Assembly: GCA_017383485.1 (NCBI GenBank)
Contig: JAFNXM010000008.1
Location: forward strand, 1-55,062
DNA length: 55,062 nt
Direction of reading: 5' to 3'
From: Bacteroidaceae bacterium
GTDB lineage: Bacteria > Bacteroidota > Bacteroidia > Bacteroidales > Bacteroidaceae
Shown here in pieces: positions 1,549 to 51,620 of this stretch (the stretch's first letter is position 1; the number at the start of each line of letters is the position of its first letter). The notes below the pieces were generated by a model. That model ran no database searches. It was not told the DNA's origin and saw only the letters and a list, made by a program, of their open reading frames with translations. The position numbers were made by a program, and so were the translations under genes.

Positions 1549-3267
1549 TTATTTCACGATAAACTTCTTGCCGTTTTGGATGTAGATGCCACCCTTGACA
1601 GTGTTCAACACACGACGACCGCTGAGGTCATAGATAGCAGAGTTTGTTTTGCCTGTCACTACGCTTTCGATAGCAGTAACTTCGTCTACCATCAACTTGA
1701 ACGCAGACACGTTGCTGGTACCGAGGTTAAGGTAAGTCTTGTTAGCCTTCAAAGTAGAACCCACCTTAGCTGGATAGAAACCAATACCGAGGTCACCACG
1801 TACGAAGATGTATGATTTTTCAGGAAGTGTAACGTCTGCACCTGCAGAGTGTGAGAAAGCATTTTCTGGAACTTCTACTGAAGTCTTATTTGGGTTCATA
1901 GTTACTCTTTCTGCACTACCCACCAAAAGTACACCAAAGTTTGCAGGTACTACGCCTTCTCCCAATGCCTTCAACGAAATCACATCTGTGCCATTTACTT
2001 CGCTTGGTTGTGCGTAGTAAGCTGTCACACCCGATGGGATGGTTGTAGCGTATGGTGCGCTGAATGTACCAATACGACCCTCCATATTGCTGAGCAATTG
2101 GTCATCTGCAGTAATTTCTGCGAGGTTGACGTTTAATGGAACGTTAACATTAACTGCTTCAAAGATAAATGAAGATCCATCGTCACCCAGGCCACTATTG
2201 TTCCAACCATTCACAGCCATTTCGCTATTCCAGTAAGAAAGGCAATTGTATGAGTTGTAAGTATTATTACCATGTTGTGTCCAATAAGAATTTTCAGAAT
2301 CCTTTACTTTGACACACCAATAATCACCTGTTTTCTTTGATTTAACAAATGTAAACTTAGTCTTGTAATCTGCAGCCGAATTAGGATCTTCCAACCATGC
2401 AAAAGCATTAGATTCGTCACTTGTATTAGCAGACATTGCAAGGATTTTACCTGTTTCATAATTATAGAAACTATAGCCTTCTGTATCATTACCAGTGATA
2501 CACCAATAGCCACTTTCATCTGGAGTCGAAGATTTATCCAAAGAGAGATAATTTGTACCACTCTTTATATTGTCACCACTTAAGCATTTAAAGTTACCAT
2601 TCTTGATAGTATAGAATTTTGTATTTACATCCCAACCATTAGCTGTGGGTGCTTGTGAAACTGTTACATTTGTTGGCGCATTCTTTGTGTCAGACTCTTC
2701 TGATTCACCGCCACCAGATTCACCGCCACCAACTTCCGAACCATCGATAGCTTCAATTGTAAGAGTTTTAAAGGATCCGTCACTTATTGTTACTGGAGAA
2801 CCCATTTCTGAAGGATTCAAAAAATAAGTTGTTTCATAATAAACTCCACCAGTTGATTTTGCCCACATAATCTTATGGGTATCACCATCCTTTAGAACGA
2901 TCCAACGTTGTTTATCACTAGTATACCCATCAACAAGTGTTGCAGTATATCCATTACTATCACTTCTGCGGAATAAATACTTCTCAGTTGATACAGACTT
3001 AATATAATAAACCTTATGACCATCACCTGATTGAGGAGCTAAAACAAACTTAAAATGAGTTGCTTCATTTTCTTGATTATATCCAACGCTTGTGTCATAA
3101 GTTACATAAGAATTTTCTGCGTAAATATAAGCTTCTTTACCTAGATTTTTTGTAAACTTGATAGTATAGACCTTAGATTCGTCTAACACTAAATCGTCAG
3201 TAGCCATCGATGGCACCACCCCAACAAATGTAAATAGTAGGGCGAGTAAAAACGTAATTTTCTTCAT
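1549..3267 (-). CDS. Secreted T9SS cargo protein with two beta-trefoil-like halves
   Basis: A 572-residue protein with a signal peptide (residues 1-22, ending PSMA). Residues 25-175 and about 205-375 each look like a beta-rich module with repeated YTIK, RWIVLKDG and YWCV elements, which suggests a ricin-type trefoil fold, joined by a Gly/Glu/Ser linker at about 176-195. Residues 380-500 form another beta domain often found before the sorting signal. The last ~45 residues, with AIYDLSGRRVLN and GGIYIQNGKKFIVK, are a type A T9SS C-terminal domain, so the protein should cross the outer membrane and be attached to the surface. No catalytic motif is seen; ligand binding is an inference. The 58-aa peptide gene follows it. 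Confidence 0.75.
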   Translation of the reverse strand: MKKITFLLALLFTFVGVVPSMATDDLVLDESKVYTIKFTKNLGKEAYIYAENSYVTYDTSVGYNQENEATHFKFVLAPQSGDGHKVYYIKSVSTEKYLFRRSDSNGYTATLVDGYTSDKQRWIVLKDGDTHKIMWAKSTGGVYYETTYFLNPSEMGSPVTISDGSFKTLTIEAIDGSEVGGGESGGGESEESDTKNAPTNVTVSQAPTANGWDVNTKFYTIKNGNFKCLSGDNIKSGTNYLSLDKSSTPDESGYWCITGNDTEGYSFYNYETGKILAMSANTSDESNAFAWLEDPNSAADYKTKFTFVKSKKTGDYWCVKVKDSENSYWTQHGNNTYNSYNCLSYWNSEMAVNGWNNSGLGDDGSSFIFEAVNVNVPLNVNLAEITADDQLLSNMEGRIGTFSAPYATTIPSGVTAYYAQPSEVNGTDVISLKALGEGVVPANFGVLLVGSAERVTMNPNKTSVEVPENAFSHSAGADVTLPEKSYIFVRGDLGIGFYPAKVGSTLKANKTYLNLGTSNVSAFKLMVDEVTAIESVVTGKTNSAIYDLSGRRVLNTVKGGIYIQNGKKFIVK

Positions 3268-3590: not shown

Positions 3591-3682
3591 CAAAAAAAGT
3601 CAAGGCCTTGTGAAAATTTCGCGACGGCTCGTTAAAAAAAGGTTTAATGTTTTTTGAAAAAGGTTAGACCTTTTTTTAGAAG
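3591..3682 (+). repeat. Dispersed intergenic repeat, copy A
   Basis: Begins AAAAAAAGTCAAGGCC, contains the family core AATTTCGCGACGGCTCGTT, and continues with A- and T-runs around GGTTTAATG and GGTTAGACC. It matches copies near 11.05, 20.75, 40.95 and 51.6 kb. Confidence 0.75.
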
Positions 3683-11041: not shown

Positions 11042-11107
11042 AAAAAAAGTCCCAACCTTTTTTAAATTTCGCGACGCCTCGTTAAAAAAAGATTAGACCT
11101 TTTTTGA
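11042..11107 (+). repeat. Dispersed intergenic repeat, copy B
   Basis: Starts AAAAAAAGTCCCAACC, holds the core AAATTTCGCGACGCCTCGTT and ends GATTAGACCTTTTTTG. It is shorter than the other copies. Confidence 0.7.
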
Positions 11108-11306
11108 ACGAGGCCTAGGATCGTGAAAATTGGCTTTAACGGAGTACAAAATGCCGACTTCAAAAAAGGGCAGAAATCATTACTTCAATACACCATATTA
11201 TATATAGGGCAAAGTTTATTCATCCCAAACACCGCTCGCCAAGACCCCAAAACGAGCAACAAAAACATAGAAAATGCATCAAAAAGAGAAAAAAAGAGGG
11301 TAAAAC

Positions 11307-19938: not shown

Positions 19939-20661
19939 ATGAAAAAGTTTATCCTTTCCATCATACTGGCACTCTGCACCCTGCCCGTTTTGGCACAGTT
20001 GAACATCCAAGTACACTACGACTTTGGTGGAGCTATCTATGGTCAGCAGCTCTCTAATCGTCCACATTGGGTGGCCACCATCGAAAATTTCACCCCCGAC
20101 AAATGGGGCAGCACCTTTTTCTTTGCCGAGGGGGAGTTTGGCGATAGGACTGTGAAGAGTGGTTATGCAGAAATCGCCCGTGAGTTGCAGTTCTGGAAAG
20201 CCCCCTTCGCCGTCCATATCGAATACAACGGCGGACTATCCGCCGATGCTGGAGGATACGACGACGCCTACCTCGGTGGAGCCGCTTGGAATTGGGCAAA
20301 TAGCGACTTCACCCGCACATTCTCCGTGCAATTGCTCTATAAATATATGGCCAGACAGGCCAAAGGCAACCGCCATTCGTGGCAACTCACCACCGTGTGG
20401 GGCGTACATTTCGCCAAAGGGTTATGTTCCTTTATTGGCTACGCAGACTTGTGGCAGGACAAGCGCGTGAATGGTTCACTCGTCCTGAGCAGCGAACCCC
20501 AATTTTGGGTAAACCTCAATGCCCTGAAACGTATCGACGACCAGTTCAACCTGAGCGTAGGCAGCGAGTTAAGAATATCCAACAACCTCGTCTGGCCCAC
20601 CACCGGCACAAACAACCGCTTCTATGCCATCCCCACCCTCGCCCTGAAGTGGACGTTTTGA
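19939..20661 (+). CDS. DUF5020 family outer-membrane protein
   Basis: 240 residues starting MKKFILSIILALCTLPVLAQ, a signal peptide; this start is chosen over an upstream in-frame ATG because only it gives a proper signal sequence. The mature part alternates short beta strands (VHYDFGG, ATIENFTPDKWGSTFFF, FAVHIEYNGG, PTLALKWTF) and ends in Phe, as expected for an outer-membrane beta-barrel. The family resembles Tsx-type nucleoside channels, which suggests a small-molecule channel, but the substrate is unknown. A copy of the dispersed repeat begins about 70 bp after the stop. Confidence 0.8.
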   Translation: MKKFILSIILALCTLPVLAQLNIQVHYDFGGAIYGQQLSNRPHWVATIENFTPDKWGSTFFFAEGEFGDRTVKSGYAEIARELQFWKAPFAVHIEYNGGLSADAGGYDDAYLGGAAWNWANSDFTRTFSVQLLYKYMARQAKGNRHSWQLTTVWGVHFAKGLCSFIGYADLWQDKRVNGSLVLSSEPQFWVNLNALKRIDDQFNLSVGSELRISNNLVWPTTGTNNRFYAIPTLALKWTF

Positions 20662-20726
20662 CCCATTCCGAGGGAAGCATATCTTCCCTTCGCCACCCCA
20701 CCTCGCCCTATGATTTCACAACCCTA

Positions 20727-20812
20727 GACCTTTTTCAAAAAACATTAGACCTTTTTTAAACTAGCCGTCGCGAAATTTAAAAAAGGTCTTACTTTTTTTC
20801 AATCATGTTACA
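20727..20812 (-). repeat. Dispersed intergenic repeat, copy C
   Basis: Inverse orientation: on the minus strand it reads AAAAAAAGTAAGACC, then AAATTTCGCGACGGCTAGTT, then AAAAAAGGTCTAATG and GGTCTAGGG. It ends 18 bp before the first 47-bp CRISPR-like repeat. Confidence 0.75.
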
Positions 20813-20829
20813 CTTTAGGAAAAATTCTA

Positions 20830-20876
20830 TTGTGAATTGCTTTCAAATTAGTACTTTTGCATAGGTAGAAACATCG
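20830..20876 (+). repeat. 47-bp CRISPR-like repeat, copy 1
   Basis: Identical to copy 3 except for the first base (A for G). The unit begins GTTGTGAATTGCTTTCAAAT and ends GCATAGGTAGAAACATC. From memory, this is close to the 47-bp type II-C CRISPR repeats of Bacteroides in length, in its GTTGTGATTTGCTTTCAAAT-like start and in its GAAACA end. The sequence immediately after it is a methyltransferase gene fragment. Confidence 0.7.
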
Positions 20877-21024
20877 CCGGTGGTGTATAGCAGTCGTCCG
20901 TGGTGCGTTTGGGCTCAATTTTCTCAACGAATGCTTTATAATCGTTAAATTTTTCGTTTTTTTGCCCATAGTATTGCACGTTTAGTTTTTTGTATGTAGA
21001 TTTGCGGAGTCTTGGGGCAGTCAC
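20877..21024 (-). pseudogene. Truncated phage-type adenine methyltransferase, N-terminal piece 1
   Basis: Reading from a possible GTG at 21024, the minus strand encodes KKLNVQYYGQKNEKFNDYK then AFVEKIEPKRTTDDCYTPPA, the N-terminal signature of phage and plasmid DNA adenine methyltransferases (TTDDCYTPP). The frame is cut at the border of repeat copy 1 and runs into repeat sequence. A homologous stretch with about 88 percent identity by eye lies at about 21477-21607. It cannot make an active enzyme. Confidence 0.6.
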
Positions 21025-21223
21025 GTATTGTGATGATGGTTGTTAAGGACAGCCGCTTCAAGACTTTTTTTTGTATCGCATAGGCTTGTTCAAATCCTTT
21101 TTTGTGTTCTTCAAATTTTATAATCCATTCATTACCTCTAAATTTGAAGGTATAAATGTGATAGCAAACAACGCCTCTTTCTTCCTTCTTTTTTATATTA
21201 TTTACATCTTTAGGGTCATTCAA
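21025..21223 (-). pseudogene. Remnant of a small phage-like gene upstream of the methyltransferase
   Basis: The minus strand encodes MNDPKDVNNIKKKEERGVV then CYHIYTFKFRGNEWIIKF and EEHKKGFEQAYAIQKK, a small alpha/beta protein of the type seen beside such methyltransferase genes in phages. The frame overlaps the methyltransferase start. I do not recognise a named family; whether it is complete is uncertain. Confidence 0.35.
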
Positions 21224-21273
21224 ATCTTTACCCTCCCCTAAATAACTTCGCCTTTTATATGCTAATTTATTGA

Positions 21274-21320
21274 GTTGCGAATTGCTTTCAAATTAGTACT
21301 TTTGCATAGGTAGAAACATC
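21274..21320 (+). repeat. 47-bp CRISPR-like repeat, copy 2
   Basis: One difference from copy 3 (GTTGCG instead of GTTGTG at the fifth base). It is followed at once by CCAAGATTGAGAAAGGCGGG, the reverse complement of the methyltransferase DNPPFSIL region. Confidence 0.7.
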
Positions 21321-21610
21321 CCAAGATTGAGAAAGGCGGGTTGTCTATGACGATACAGGTCCCTGTATAGCCTTCGGCTTGGTAGTCTCCAGCAGGGCGG
21401 AATGGTCGCATGATACGTGCCCCCTGTGGCACCGGGTAGTTGTCGAGGACATATTTCAGCACTGCGTCGTAGACAGCTGGTGGTAGGCGCAGTCGTCAGT
21501 GGTTCGTTTTGGCTCAAATTTCTCAACGAATGCTTTATAATCGTTAAATTTTTCATTTTTCCCCCATAGTATTGCACGTTTAGTTTTTTGTTTGTAGATT
21601 TGCAGTGAAA
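21321..21610 (-). pseudogene. Truncated, frameshifted phage-type adenine methyltransferase, piece 2
   Basis: The minus strand first encodes NVQYYGG and the TTDD region, then in another frame AVLKYVLDNYPVPQGARIMR, PFRPAGDYQAEGYTGTC and VIDNPPFSIL. The DNPPF catalytic motif and the RPF-x-x-x-GDY element are hallmarks of phage adenine-specific methyltransferases. At least one single-base loss near TATGGGGGAAAAATG and an indel near the DDC codons break the frame, and the gene stops at repeat copy 2. It is a dead fragment reaching further into the gene than piece 1. Confidence 0.65.
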
Positions 21611-21677
21611 AATTGGTGCGCTGTTCACATGTCGGAACTATTTATAGTTTGCAGGCTTCGGAGAGACACCAATTTTT
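21608..21677. repeat. Inverted repeat beside methyltransferase piece 2
   Basis: AAAAATTGGTG and CACCAATTTTT face each other across 48 bp that contain a second palindrome, AACTATTTATAGTT. It starts where similarity to the first methyltransferase fragment ends, so it may be a phage control element or a recombination point. Confidence 0.5.
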
Positions 21678-21720
21678 TTATATAAATCTCATTGTGTAAA
21701 TATTGTCGCTCCCATGATCT

Positions 21721-21767
21721 GTTGTGAATTGCTTTCAAATTAGTACTTTTGCATAGGTAGAAACATC
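21721..21767 (+). repeat. 47-bp CRISPR-like repeat, copy 3
   Basis: Reference copy: GTTGTGAATTGCTTTCAAAT, then TAGTACTTTT, then GCATAGGTAGAAACATC. It contains TTG-N19-TACTTTTG, a full Bacteroidota promoter match. It is followed by TGTTGTTTTTTTAGTG and, about 50 bp on, a rho-independent terminator on the same strand. Confidence 0.7.
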
Positions 21768-21816
21768 TGTTGTTTTTTTAGTGAAATCAAAATGTAAGTT
21801 GTGAAGACATTAGGTT

Positions 21817-21846
21817 GCCCTCGTCCTTTATCGGGGGCTTTTTTAT
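21817..21846 (+). terminator. Terminator downstream of repeat copy 3
   Basis: GCCCTCG pairs with CGGGGGC (one G-T pair) around TCCTTTAT, followed by TTTTTTATT. It would stop transcripts started inside repeat 3 after about 90 bases. Confidence 0.75.
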
Positions 21847-21857
21847 TGTCTAAAAAG

Positions 21858-21890
21858 AACTGACGAGCCTTTGCTTTTCATCAGTTTTTT
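21858..21890 (+). terminator. Second terminator downstream of repeat copy 3
   Basis: AACTGA pairs with TCAGTT, followed by TTTTTT; it stands 12 bp behind the first terminator. Confidence 0.5.
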
Positions 21891-22229
21891 TACGCCTTCA
21901 AAAAATAAAATAAAAAAACTATGACCTTTCGGACTTATAATAAATAAGGGCATATTAAGAGTTTTTCGAGGACATTTTTCAAGCCCTCATCTACGCTAAA
22001 GATGAAGGGCGTTCTTATGGCGATAGTATCTTTGCATTGTCAATCCACAACACGCAAGCGTGCGTAAAATGATCATAAGGATATGTATGGAAAGATCATC
22101 AAGTGTGATGAAGCCACGCACTATACAATTCACTCCATATAATCAAACAAAAGATTGACAGCGCTCTTTGACTTATTGTACAAAAGGGGAAAAGATATTA
22201 ATAGGCACAGATAATACAAAATGGACGGC

Positions 22230-22271
22230 AGGCAACAAAAACAAAGAGGGTGTGCCATATAGGGCACACCC
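22230..22271 (-). terminator. Terminator of the ribosomal superoperon after rplQ
   Basis: GGGTGTGCC pairs with GGCACACCC around ATATAG; on the minus strand it is followed by TCTTTGTTTTTG. Confidence 0.85.
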
Positions 22272-22299
22272 ATCTTGAAACATATTGCGATTGAGAATA

Positions 22300-22779
22300 T
22301 TACTCTGCTGCTGTTTCTTCTGCTGCAACTTCTGTAGCAGGAGCTTCTGCAACTGGAGTAGCACTCTTCTTGCCTGAACGGCGAGTACGAGGTGCTTTCT
22401 TCTCAGTCTTAGCCATGTTTTCGTTGTAGTCTACCAATTCGATGAAGCACATTTCTGAACCATCGCTAGGACGGAAACCAGTCTTGATGATACGAGTGTA
22501 ACCACCGGGACGGTTAGCTACCTTTTGTGATACTTCTCCGAAGAGTTCAGTTACCACATACTTGTCTTGGAGGTAACGGAAAACTACACGACGTGAAGCT
22601 GTAGTATCCACCTTGCAACGAGTGATAAGTGGTTCAACGTACTTCTTCAACGCTTTTGCCTTAGCAAGAGTCGTATTGATTCTTTTGTGCTTGATCAAAG
22701 AACATGCCATGTTAGAAAGCATAGCTGCTCTGTGAGAAGCTGTACGGCTCAAATGATTGAATTTCTTGTTATGTCTCAT
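22300..22779 (-). CDS. rplQ: 50S ribosomal protein bL17
   Basis: 159 residues starting [20 protein letters not shown]. The conserved core (1-118) binds 23S rRNA near the tunnel exit. The tail from about 120 is rich in Lys, Ala and Glu ([12 protein letters not shown], then [10 protein letters not shown]), an extension common in Bacteroidota. It is the last gene of the rplC-rplQ unit, 7 bp after rpoA, and is followed by a strong terminator. Confidence 0.97.
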
Positions 22780-40913: not shown

Positions 40914-41003
40914 AAGAAAAAAGTCAAGGCCTCGTAAAAATTTCGCGACGGCTCGTTAAAAAAAGGTCTAATGTTTTTTAAAAAAGGTCTTGACTTTTTT
41001 TGA
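40914..41003 (+). repeat. Dispersed intergenic repeat, copy D
   Basis: The most symmetric copy: AAAAAAGTCAAGGCCT at the left and AGGTCTTGACTTTTTTT at the right are near-perfect inverted ends, flanking AATTTCGCGACGGCTCGTT, AAAAAAAGGTCTAATG and a T6A6 tract. Confidence 0.78.
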
Positions 41004-51529: not shown

Positions 51530-51620
51530 AAAAAAAGTCGGCGCGGAATTTTAAAAAGCCTAGACCTTTTTTAAAAAAAGCCTAACCTTTTTTGAAAAAG
51601 ATTAGACTTTTTTTTCGAGG
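51530..51620 (+). repeat. Dispersed intergenic repeat, copy E (divergent)
   Basis: Begins AAAAAAAAGTCGGCGCGGAA and carries three iterations of a TAGACC/TAACC/TAGAC plus T-run unit about 22 bp apart; the central core is degenerate. Confidence 0.6.

Follow-up and report, generated by a model that had tools for sequence, protein, structure and literature searches.

A probable relict type II-C CRISPR-Cas9 locus with phage-derived DNA between its repeats in a Bacteroidaceae draft genome

The locus is situated in a 55,062-nt stretch of contig JAFNXM010000008.1 of a Bacteroidaceae bacterium (assembly GCA_017383485.1), called here the window; the genome (G000) is a draft of 1.68 Mb in 39 contigs, 63.6% complete. 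It is flanked on the left by a DUF5020 gene (19939-20658, + strand; Pfam PF16412, E 5.5e-90) and on the right by rplQ (22300-22779, - strand) with rpoA beyond. Between these markers, three 47-nt repeats in + orientation, R1 (20829-20875), R2 (21274-21320), and R3 (21721-21767), enclose two long intervals assigned to the - strand, i1 (20876-21273, 398 bp) and i2 (21321-21720, 400 bp). Directly after R3 come exactly 30 nt (S3, 21768-21797, +), a normal-length spacer by position and length, then the octamer GTTGTGAA (21798-21805, +) and a tracrRNA 3' tail with its terminator hairpin and without the anti-repeat (21806-21843, +). Positions 20400-22600 of the window contain no N. An interspersed palindromic intergenic element of the GACCTTTTT...AAAAAGGTC type adjoins the array at 20734-20802 and is also found in the window at 3592-3664, 11042-11128, 40917-40990, and ~51550-51614.

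Pairwise comparison of the repeats over 47 nt gave one mismatch for R1/R3, one for R2/R3, and two for R1/R2, in agreement with the initial annotation, which had described three near-identical 47-bp repeats in one orientation, R1 and R2 each one base away from R3. Of the interval lengths given there, 397 and 400 bp, the latter is correct and the former is 398 bp. R1, the distal terminal copy, starts with ATTGTG, and R2 carries one private substitution (GTTGCG). The likeness of the three is not due to chance, because their mutual alignments within the window have E-values of 4e-18 to 6e-16. The Rfam family RF01362 (CRISPR-DR49) matched R1, R2, and R3 at 47/47 positions with 35.2, 35.5, and 39.4 bits, respectively (E 0.00015-0.0013), below its 41-bit gathering score. 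Each repeat retains a TAnnTTTG element, the form of the -7 promoter motif in Bacteroidota; apart from the tracrRNA terminator, nothing usable came from predictions of promoters, terminators, and folds.

The initial annotation would have abandoned the CRISPR interpretation for a repeat scattered over the genome outside CRISPR contexts or absent from Bacteroidota arrays. A search of the G000 genome with R3 and 22 flanking bases retrieved the three window copies, the next of 13 matches being an 18-bp fragment (E 0.19). With just three copies in its own genome, the repeat was ruled out as a genome-wide or non-CRISPR element. A phage-borne mini-array with an R3-type repeat was also ruled out, with zero exact pattern matches in the viral collection.

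The exact-pattern scan of genome contigs for the array repeat led to one stretch, JAGKTZ010000024.1 of a Prevotellaceae MAG (isolate cow7.9), which we take to be the same record as a contig of G001, a sibling of the same genus. This contig carries 21 repeat copies with 29-30-nt spacers; relative to R3, a single C-to-T change marks 20 of these copies, and the terminal copy departs from R3 at one other base. The gene order is rpoA, rplQ, an XRE/peptidase-like gene (domains HTH_3 and Peptidase_M78), tracrRNA, cas9, cas1, cas2, array, DUF5020, and a xer recombinase. The encoded Cas9 (1439 aa; TIGR01865, 483 bits, cut-off 100), type II Cas1 (313 aa; TIGR03639, 312 bits, cut-off 120), and Cas2 (110 aa; TIGR01573, 72 bits, cut-off 24.5) were confirmed by NCBIfam with these scores and also by Pfam. 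In the G001 array (L035), one spacer is present twice at the old end, and two near-identical spacers differ solely at their 3' ends.

The DUF5020 protein of the window is 92% identical to that of G001 and rplQ is 98.7% identical to its counterpart. The 477 bp from the end of the DUF5020 gene through R1 align to G001 at 92%, and the same-side terminal repeat of G001 likewise starts with ATTGTG. DUF5020/xer and rplQ/rpoA bracket both the window locus and the intact G001 locus, and the parts between them are missing in the window. Judged by sequence comparison, R1-R3 are genuine type II-C CRISPR repeats, as the initial annotation had proposed, because a near-identical repeat (one mismatch to R3) serves an intact cas9-cas1-cas2 locus at the same site in G001. 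The subtype was assigned because of the three-gene operon combined with a 47-nt repeat, as in PMC5704556 and PMC6008519. The type II-C repeats of B. fragilis also have 47 bp (PMC5704556); in the type II-C system of R. anatipestifer, the repeats have 47 bp, the spacers 30 bp, and the tracrRNA lies upstream of cas9 (PMC6008519).

In tblastn searches of the window (E 1e-5), rplQ, rpoA, DUF5020, and xer of G001 were found, and cas9, cas1, cas2, and the XRE gene gave no match. Neither TIGR01865 (E 0.001) nor G001 Cas9 (E 1e-20) detected a Cas9 in the G000 assembly, which is 63.6% complete, so a cas locus elsewhere in the genome is possible; the search for cas1 and cas2 covered the window. The site where G001 keeps cas9 is assembled in the window and has no cas9. 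Among the 58 genus genomes, 19 match G001 Cas9 at E 1e-20. Two other arrangements were seen in relatives. In G008:C4 (L046, near 3024-3069), a tracrRNA-like sequence with a degenerate anti-repeat is present, a search of the 7-kb locus brought up no cas genes, and Cas9 had no match in the 81%-complete genome, perhaps another case of cas loss. G012, G011, and G017 (L044, L181, and L182) have cas9-cas1-cas2 loci with a single repeat beside cas2, which in G011 abuts a run of N.

The sequence following S3 reads GTTGTGAAGACATTAGGTTGCCCTCGTCC. S3 and the tracrRNA tail after R3 were both missing from the initial annotation. The spacers of relatives, collected from intervals of 21-59 nt and hence in a set blind to long ones, numbered 142, of which 140 were unique; the length was 29 or 30 nt in 137 of the unique ones, 31 nt in two, and 48 nt in one. 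When the fetched loci were scanned for the tracrRNA tail without a filter, it turned up in the window and in the relatives G001, G018, G007, and G008, and GTTGTGAA occupies the corresponding place in all five. This octamer equals the first 8 nt of the repeat and is also an internal tracrRNA 8-mer; at the window locus, the tracrRNA survives from GTTGTGAA onward only. The octamer and the tail are probably a deletion scar, mainly because the distance from R3 to GTTGTGAA is that of one spacer. From the tail to ~22240, BLAST against G001 gave a lone 36-bp match; therefore, the change extended past the junction.

The ancestral order would have been DUF5020, array, cas2, cas1, cas9, tracrRNA, XRE/peptidase gene, and rplQ, as G001 still displays. 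In the proposed event, GTTGTGAA opening an array repeat would have been joined to GTTGTGAA inside the tracrRNA, and everything in between would have been lost: the array on its leader side, cas2, cas1, and cas9, and the anti-repeat of the tracrRNA. The remnant would then read R1-i1-R2-i2-R3-S3, an 8-nt repeat stub, and the tracrRNA tail. We consider it rather likely that this is what remains of a type II-C CRISPR-Cas9 locus and that the DNA in its intervals is truly of phage origin. The remnant should be non-functional as an immune system: no crRNA pathway is expected from the locus because the anti-repeat is missing and no Cas9 is at hand. The suggestion of the initial annotation that it might be a working repeat-bounded cassette system found no support in a locus that has lost its cas genes.

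The two long intervals contain, by homology, phage-derived DNA. In i1, the stretch ~21064-21273 probably encodes the last part of a phage head protein, and ~20876-21005 is the 5' part of an adenine methyltransferase gene; in i2, methyltransferase residues up to DNPPFSIL, which touches R2, are followed by ~117 bp without an identifiable relative. The adenine methyltransferase function is our assumption from the DNPPF motif. In i2, this gene is matched in two different frames (21319-21483 and 21489-21614). PHROG 21498, a family with no named function, was matched by the second i2 fragment (E 3e-21) and by the methyltransferase relative in G020 (E 2e-48), and a viral-contig search with the latter gave 317 confirmed relatives, 80 of which were kept. 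Over 65 aa, the i1 head fragment shares 52% identity with a G008 open frame, which comes after a Mu-F-like segment (PF04233, 28.6 bits, cut-off 29.6; PHROG 220 minor head protein, E 4.5e-16), and a single 283-aa frame of G020 contains both the Mu-F-like and the i1-like parts. The G020 frame had no Pfam or NCBIfam match, and the i1 head fragment itself had no Pfam or PHROG match.

The i1 DNA search of 50,697 phage records found nothing, and no relative could be confirmed among the viral contigs for the i1 head fragment, for the second i2 fragment, or for a DNA pattern of i1. In the 58 genomes, the last ~117 bp of i2 had chance-level matches only. Of the 140 unique spacers of relatives, none matched i1 or i2 above 34 bits, the three hits above 34 bits falling elsewhere. 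A simple duplication of one interval into the other was ruled out since the 116 bp that they share lie at unequal offsets (15-130 versus 169-283).

The methyltransferase homology extends to residue 41/41 at R1 in i1 and to residue 58/58 at R2 in i2, and the homology of the i1 head fragment reaches its residue 3, ~8 nt from R2. Phage homology thus meets the repeats to within ~8 nt at three of the four interval edges; the right edge of i2 has no relative. The initial annotation had rightly placed phage DNA in the intervals, as the PHROG 21498 match and the 317 viral-contig relatives of the methyltransferase indicate, and had it start exactly at a repeat end, which applies to the left edges of i1 and i2 and, to within ~8 nt, to the right edge of i1.

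The same phage region also occurs outside arrays. The 116-bp core common to i1 and i2 (92%) recurs outside CRISPR repeats on contig C24 of the same genome (95%), as a tandem pair in G001 (86-93%), and in longer versions in G020 and G008. The C24 piece (L038:2641-3024) is phage debris of ~380 bp that includes the methyltransferase start; it has no CRISPR-like flanking duplication except for a weak 14-nt pair. No alignment to this ~380-bp piece was found in the G001 contigs, which break at the same site with different DNA. With the G020 copy as a query, the methyltransferase 5' region was matched in 6 of the 58 genomes; the truncated copies in G000, G001, and G008 each contain the gene start, as does the G020 copy from which the query was taken, and G070 and G076 have long open frames. 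These observations are at most suggestive of a hot spot, since short matches depend on the query. In G001:C103 (L039:1061-1228), an 84-bp intergenic unit is present in two tandem copies and has relatives at many places across the genus genomes.

A second array with an exceptional interval was found in another family of the order (G060:C14, L180). Its 34 repeats follow one another at 75-76-bp steps except at one interval: 32 of the 33 intervals have 29-30 nt and one has 2282 bp. The repeats bounding the latter are intact (0 and 1 mismatch to the query copy). A 497-aa open frame reaching the repeat matches four viral contigs (22 stretches tested), the best at 52%, and the interval is colinear with viral contig L227, position 2281 corresponding to L227:2501 and position 1 to L227:4746, so that viral-contig homology comes within 1 nt of the repeat at both edges. 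L227:2501 lies inside a 715-codon frame (start 1832) and L227:4746 inside a 536-codon frame; because the alignment ends within these two frames, phage genes are cut at both G060 repeats. The 497-aa frame had no PHROG match and the matching L227 segment no Pfam match, and we regard the interval as phage-like by the label of the predicted viral contigs. None of the 32 normal G060 spacers matches the 2282-bp interval.

A weaker third case is G006:C104 (L178:5165-5772): past the end of a regular array stand two degenerate half-repeats of 25 nt, each with 2 mismatches, at a distance of 542 bp, and the 160-aa open frame that they enclose matched no PHROG significantly (best E 0.058). It indicates that decay at array ends also occurs. 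The G006 halves apart, the fetched arrays of G001, G003, G005, G006, G007, G019, and G020 run at 75-78-bp steps, with one 94-bp unit in G019 as the exception. A spacing search of 399 family genomes, restricted to exact repeat cores in three narrow size ranges (G060 being outside the family), found gaps of 415-444 bp in 26 genomes and gaps of 155-184 bp and of 385-414 bp in none; among the matches listed for the first range, those not from the window's genome were regular arrays. Regular 77-bp units as the origin of the ~445-bp spacing were rejected for the window, as the listed matches from other genomes have an intervening repeat and the two from its own genome do not. In an open-access literature library, the entries listed for unusually long spacers or prespacers, for chimeras of spacer and protospacer, and for arrays with interruptions contained no described case.

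How did the phage DNA come to lie between the repeats? The flush ends on full repeats (398, 400, and 2282 bp) and the phage DNA, colinear where this can be judged, point to joining at two spacers that match one phage, and the flush and colinear G060 interval favors this over the capture of a long fragment. Such joining may have taken place in the cell by recombination or in the assembly, where the assembler may have crossed at shared 30-nt words. In the leading but tentative explanation, spacer-anchored recombination in the cell was the route. Two spacers of the array would have been directed at separate sites of a single phage, and recombination, assumed to occur at the 30-bp matches, would have put the intervening phage segment in place of the array portion between both spacers; the incoming segment was perhaps released by a pair of Cas9 cuts. 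Both edges of each interval would then consist of a 30-nt spacer that directly adjoins a repeat. Counting against this route, the array would have needed three or four spacers that all target a region of ~600 bp in the same phage, no unique spacer of the relatives matched i1 or i2 above 34 bits, and no normal G060 spacer matched the long G060 interval. The other origin of a two-spacer joint, an assembly chimera, is almost as probable: the assembler would have left the array for a co-occurring phage at a word common to spacer and protospacer and returned at another such word, the true arrays being ordinary. A chimera would account for the flush ends and arbitrary lengths in G000 and G060, both of which are drafts (G000 with 39 contigs and 63.6% completeness), and sibling assemblies do break at arrays, with the contigs of G003 and G020 ending there, that of G015 beginning at a repeat, and an N run lying beside the single repeat of G011. 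It does not sit easily with three repeats that differ from one another, R2 having its private base, with a methyltransferase split over two frames in i2, unlike a live phage gene, or with the right end, a coherent deletion scar in a region free of N. That the closest phage of i1 was not found in the viral collection, either with the protein fragment or with the DNA pattern, is compatible with recombination and chimera alike.

Before the G060 case was known, untrimmed capture was given the first place, as a tentative choice, ahead of recombination and then chimera, both of which were held to be unlikely, and other decay was held to be very improbable. The initial annotation had named both spacer-phage recombination and the capture of long fragments; with the help of G060, the former is now the leading route and the latter has become less likely. 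Untrimmed capture, which we now regard as unlikely, would mean that Cas1-Cas2 put over-long phage fragments between duplicated repeats after the trimming to 30 bp had been lost in the course of Cas9 decay. The full repeats flanking both intervals and the nearly equal lengths are in its favor, as are findings on the type II-A system of S. pyogenes (PMC8034620), where unprocessed substrates were integrated by Cas1-Cas2 on its own and a complex with HNH-inactive Cas9 led to unprocessed spacers and more ectopic insertions. The same paper states, however, that the complex hardly processes long double-stranded substrates and that nuclease-mutant Cas9 still yields 30-bp spacers, other nucleases possibly doing the trimming. 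R. anatipestifer gains its new spacers at the cas2 end (PMC6008519), whereas i1 and i2 lie at the far end and S3 is normal, and a 2282-bp interval in an array that is regular on both sides, as in G060, is a poor fit to a trimming fault. Ordinary decay, in which phage debris landed in the spacers of a dying array and touches the repeats by coincidence, appears more improbable still. Debris with the same methyltransferase 5' region does lie outside CRISPR repeats in C24 (~380 bp), G001, G008, and G020, and the degenerate repeat halves of G006, 542 bp apart, stand next to a regular array. Against a coincidence are the distances between phage homology and repeat, at most ~8 nt at the three window edges that could be judged and at most 1 nt at both G060 edges, and the C24 remnant, which lacks a flanking duplication except for the weak 14-nt pair.

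If spacer-anchored recombination was the route, segments of 398 and 400 bp were swapped into the window array and one of 2282 bp into that of G060. The wider proposition, that Bacteroidales type II-C arrays swap in whole phage segments between two matching spacers and leave repeats on both sides, is speculative at present and we consider it unlikely rather than established. If the long intervals are real, they suggest together with G060 that CRISPR arrays can exchange DNA with the phages that they target, and such exchange, if true, would reshape views on how arrays gain and lose memories. If the intervals are assembly products, they call for caution in the mining of metagenome arrays and suggest a simple filter. 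The locus would in addition provide a clear snapshot of type II-C loss by a deletion between array repeat and tracrRNA through a shared 8-mer. Promoter activity of the TAnnTTTG elements, if present, would in addition yield transcripts of i1 and i2 that are antisense to the phage methyltransferase gene.

The window locus can be compared with several known systems. Rfam CRISPR-DR49 matches its repeats over the full length, yet with 35-39 bits against the curated 41. Orphan arrays without cas genes, such as Enterococcus faecalis CRISPR2, share the absence of cas genes, and the summary description of CRISPR2 makes no mention of long phage intervals or a tracrRNA-fused scar. The untrimmed integration of S. 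pyogenes II-A (PMC8034620) likewise produces inserts longer than 30 bp but belongs to type II-A, and the excerpted text describes no ~400-bp insert. The G060 array resembles the window in its phage-like interval, flush between intact repeats, and differs in the length of 2282 bp, the repeat, the phage, and the otherwise regular array. Unlike the Bacteroidota type II-C loci, as represented by G001 and Riemerella anatipestifer CH-2 CRISPR1 (PMC6008519), the window locus has no cas9, cas1, or cas2 and no anti-repeat, and its intervals are 398 and 400 bp instead of ~30 bp, S3 being the only one of 30 nt. With these loci it shares the 47-nt repeat, the 30-nt spacer, and the tracrRNA body, and specifically with G001, the terminal repeat variant and the chromosomal site.
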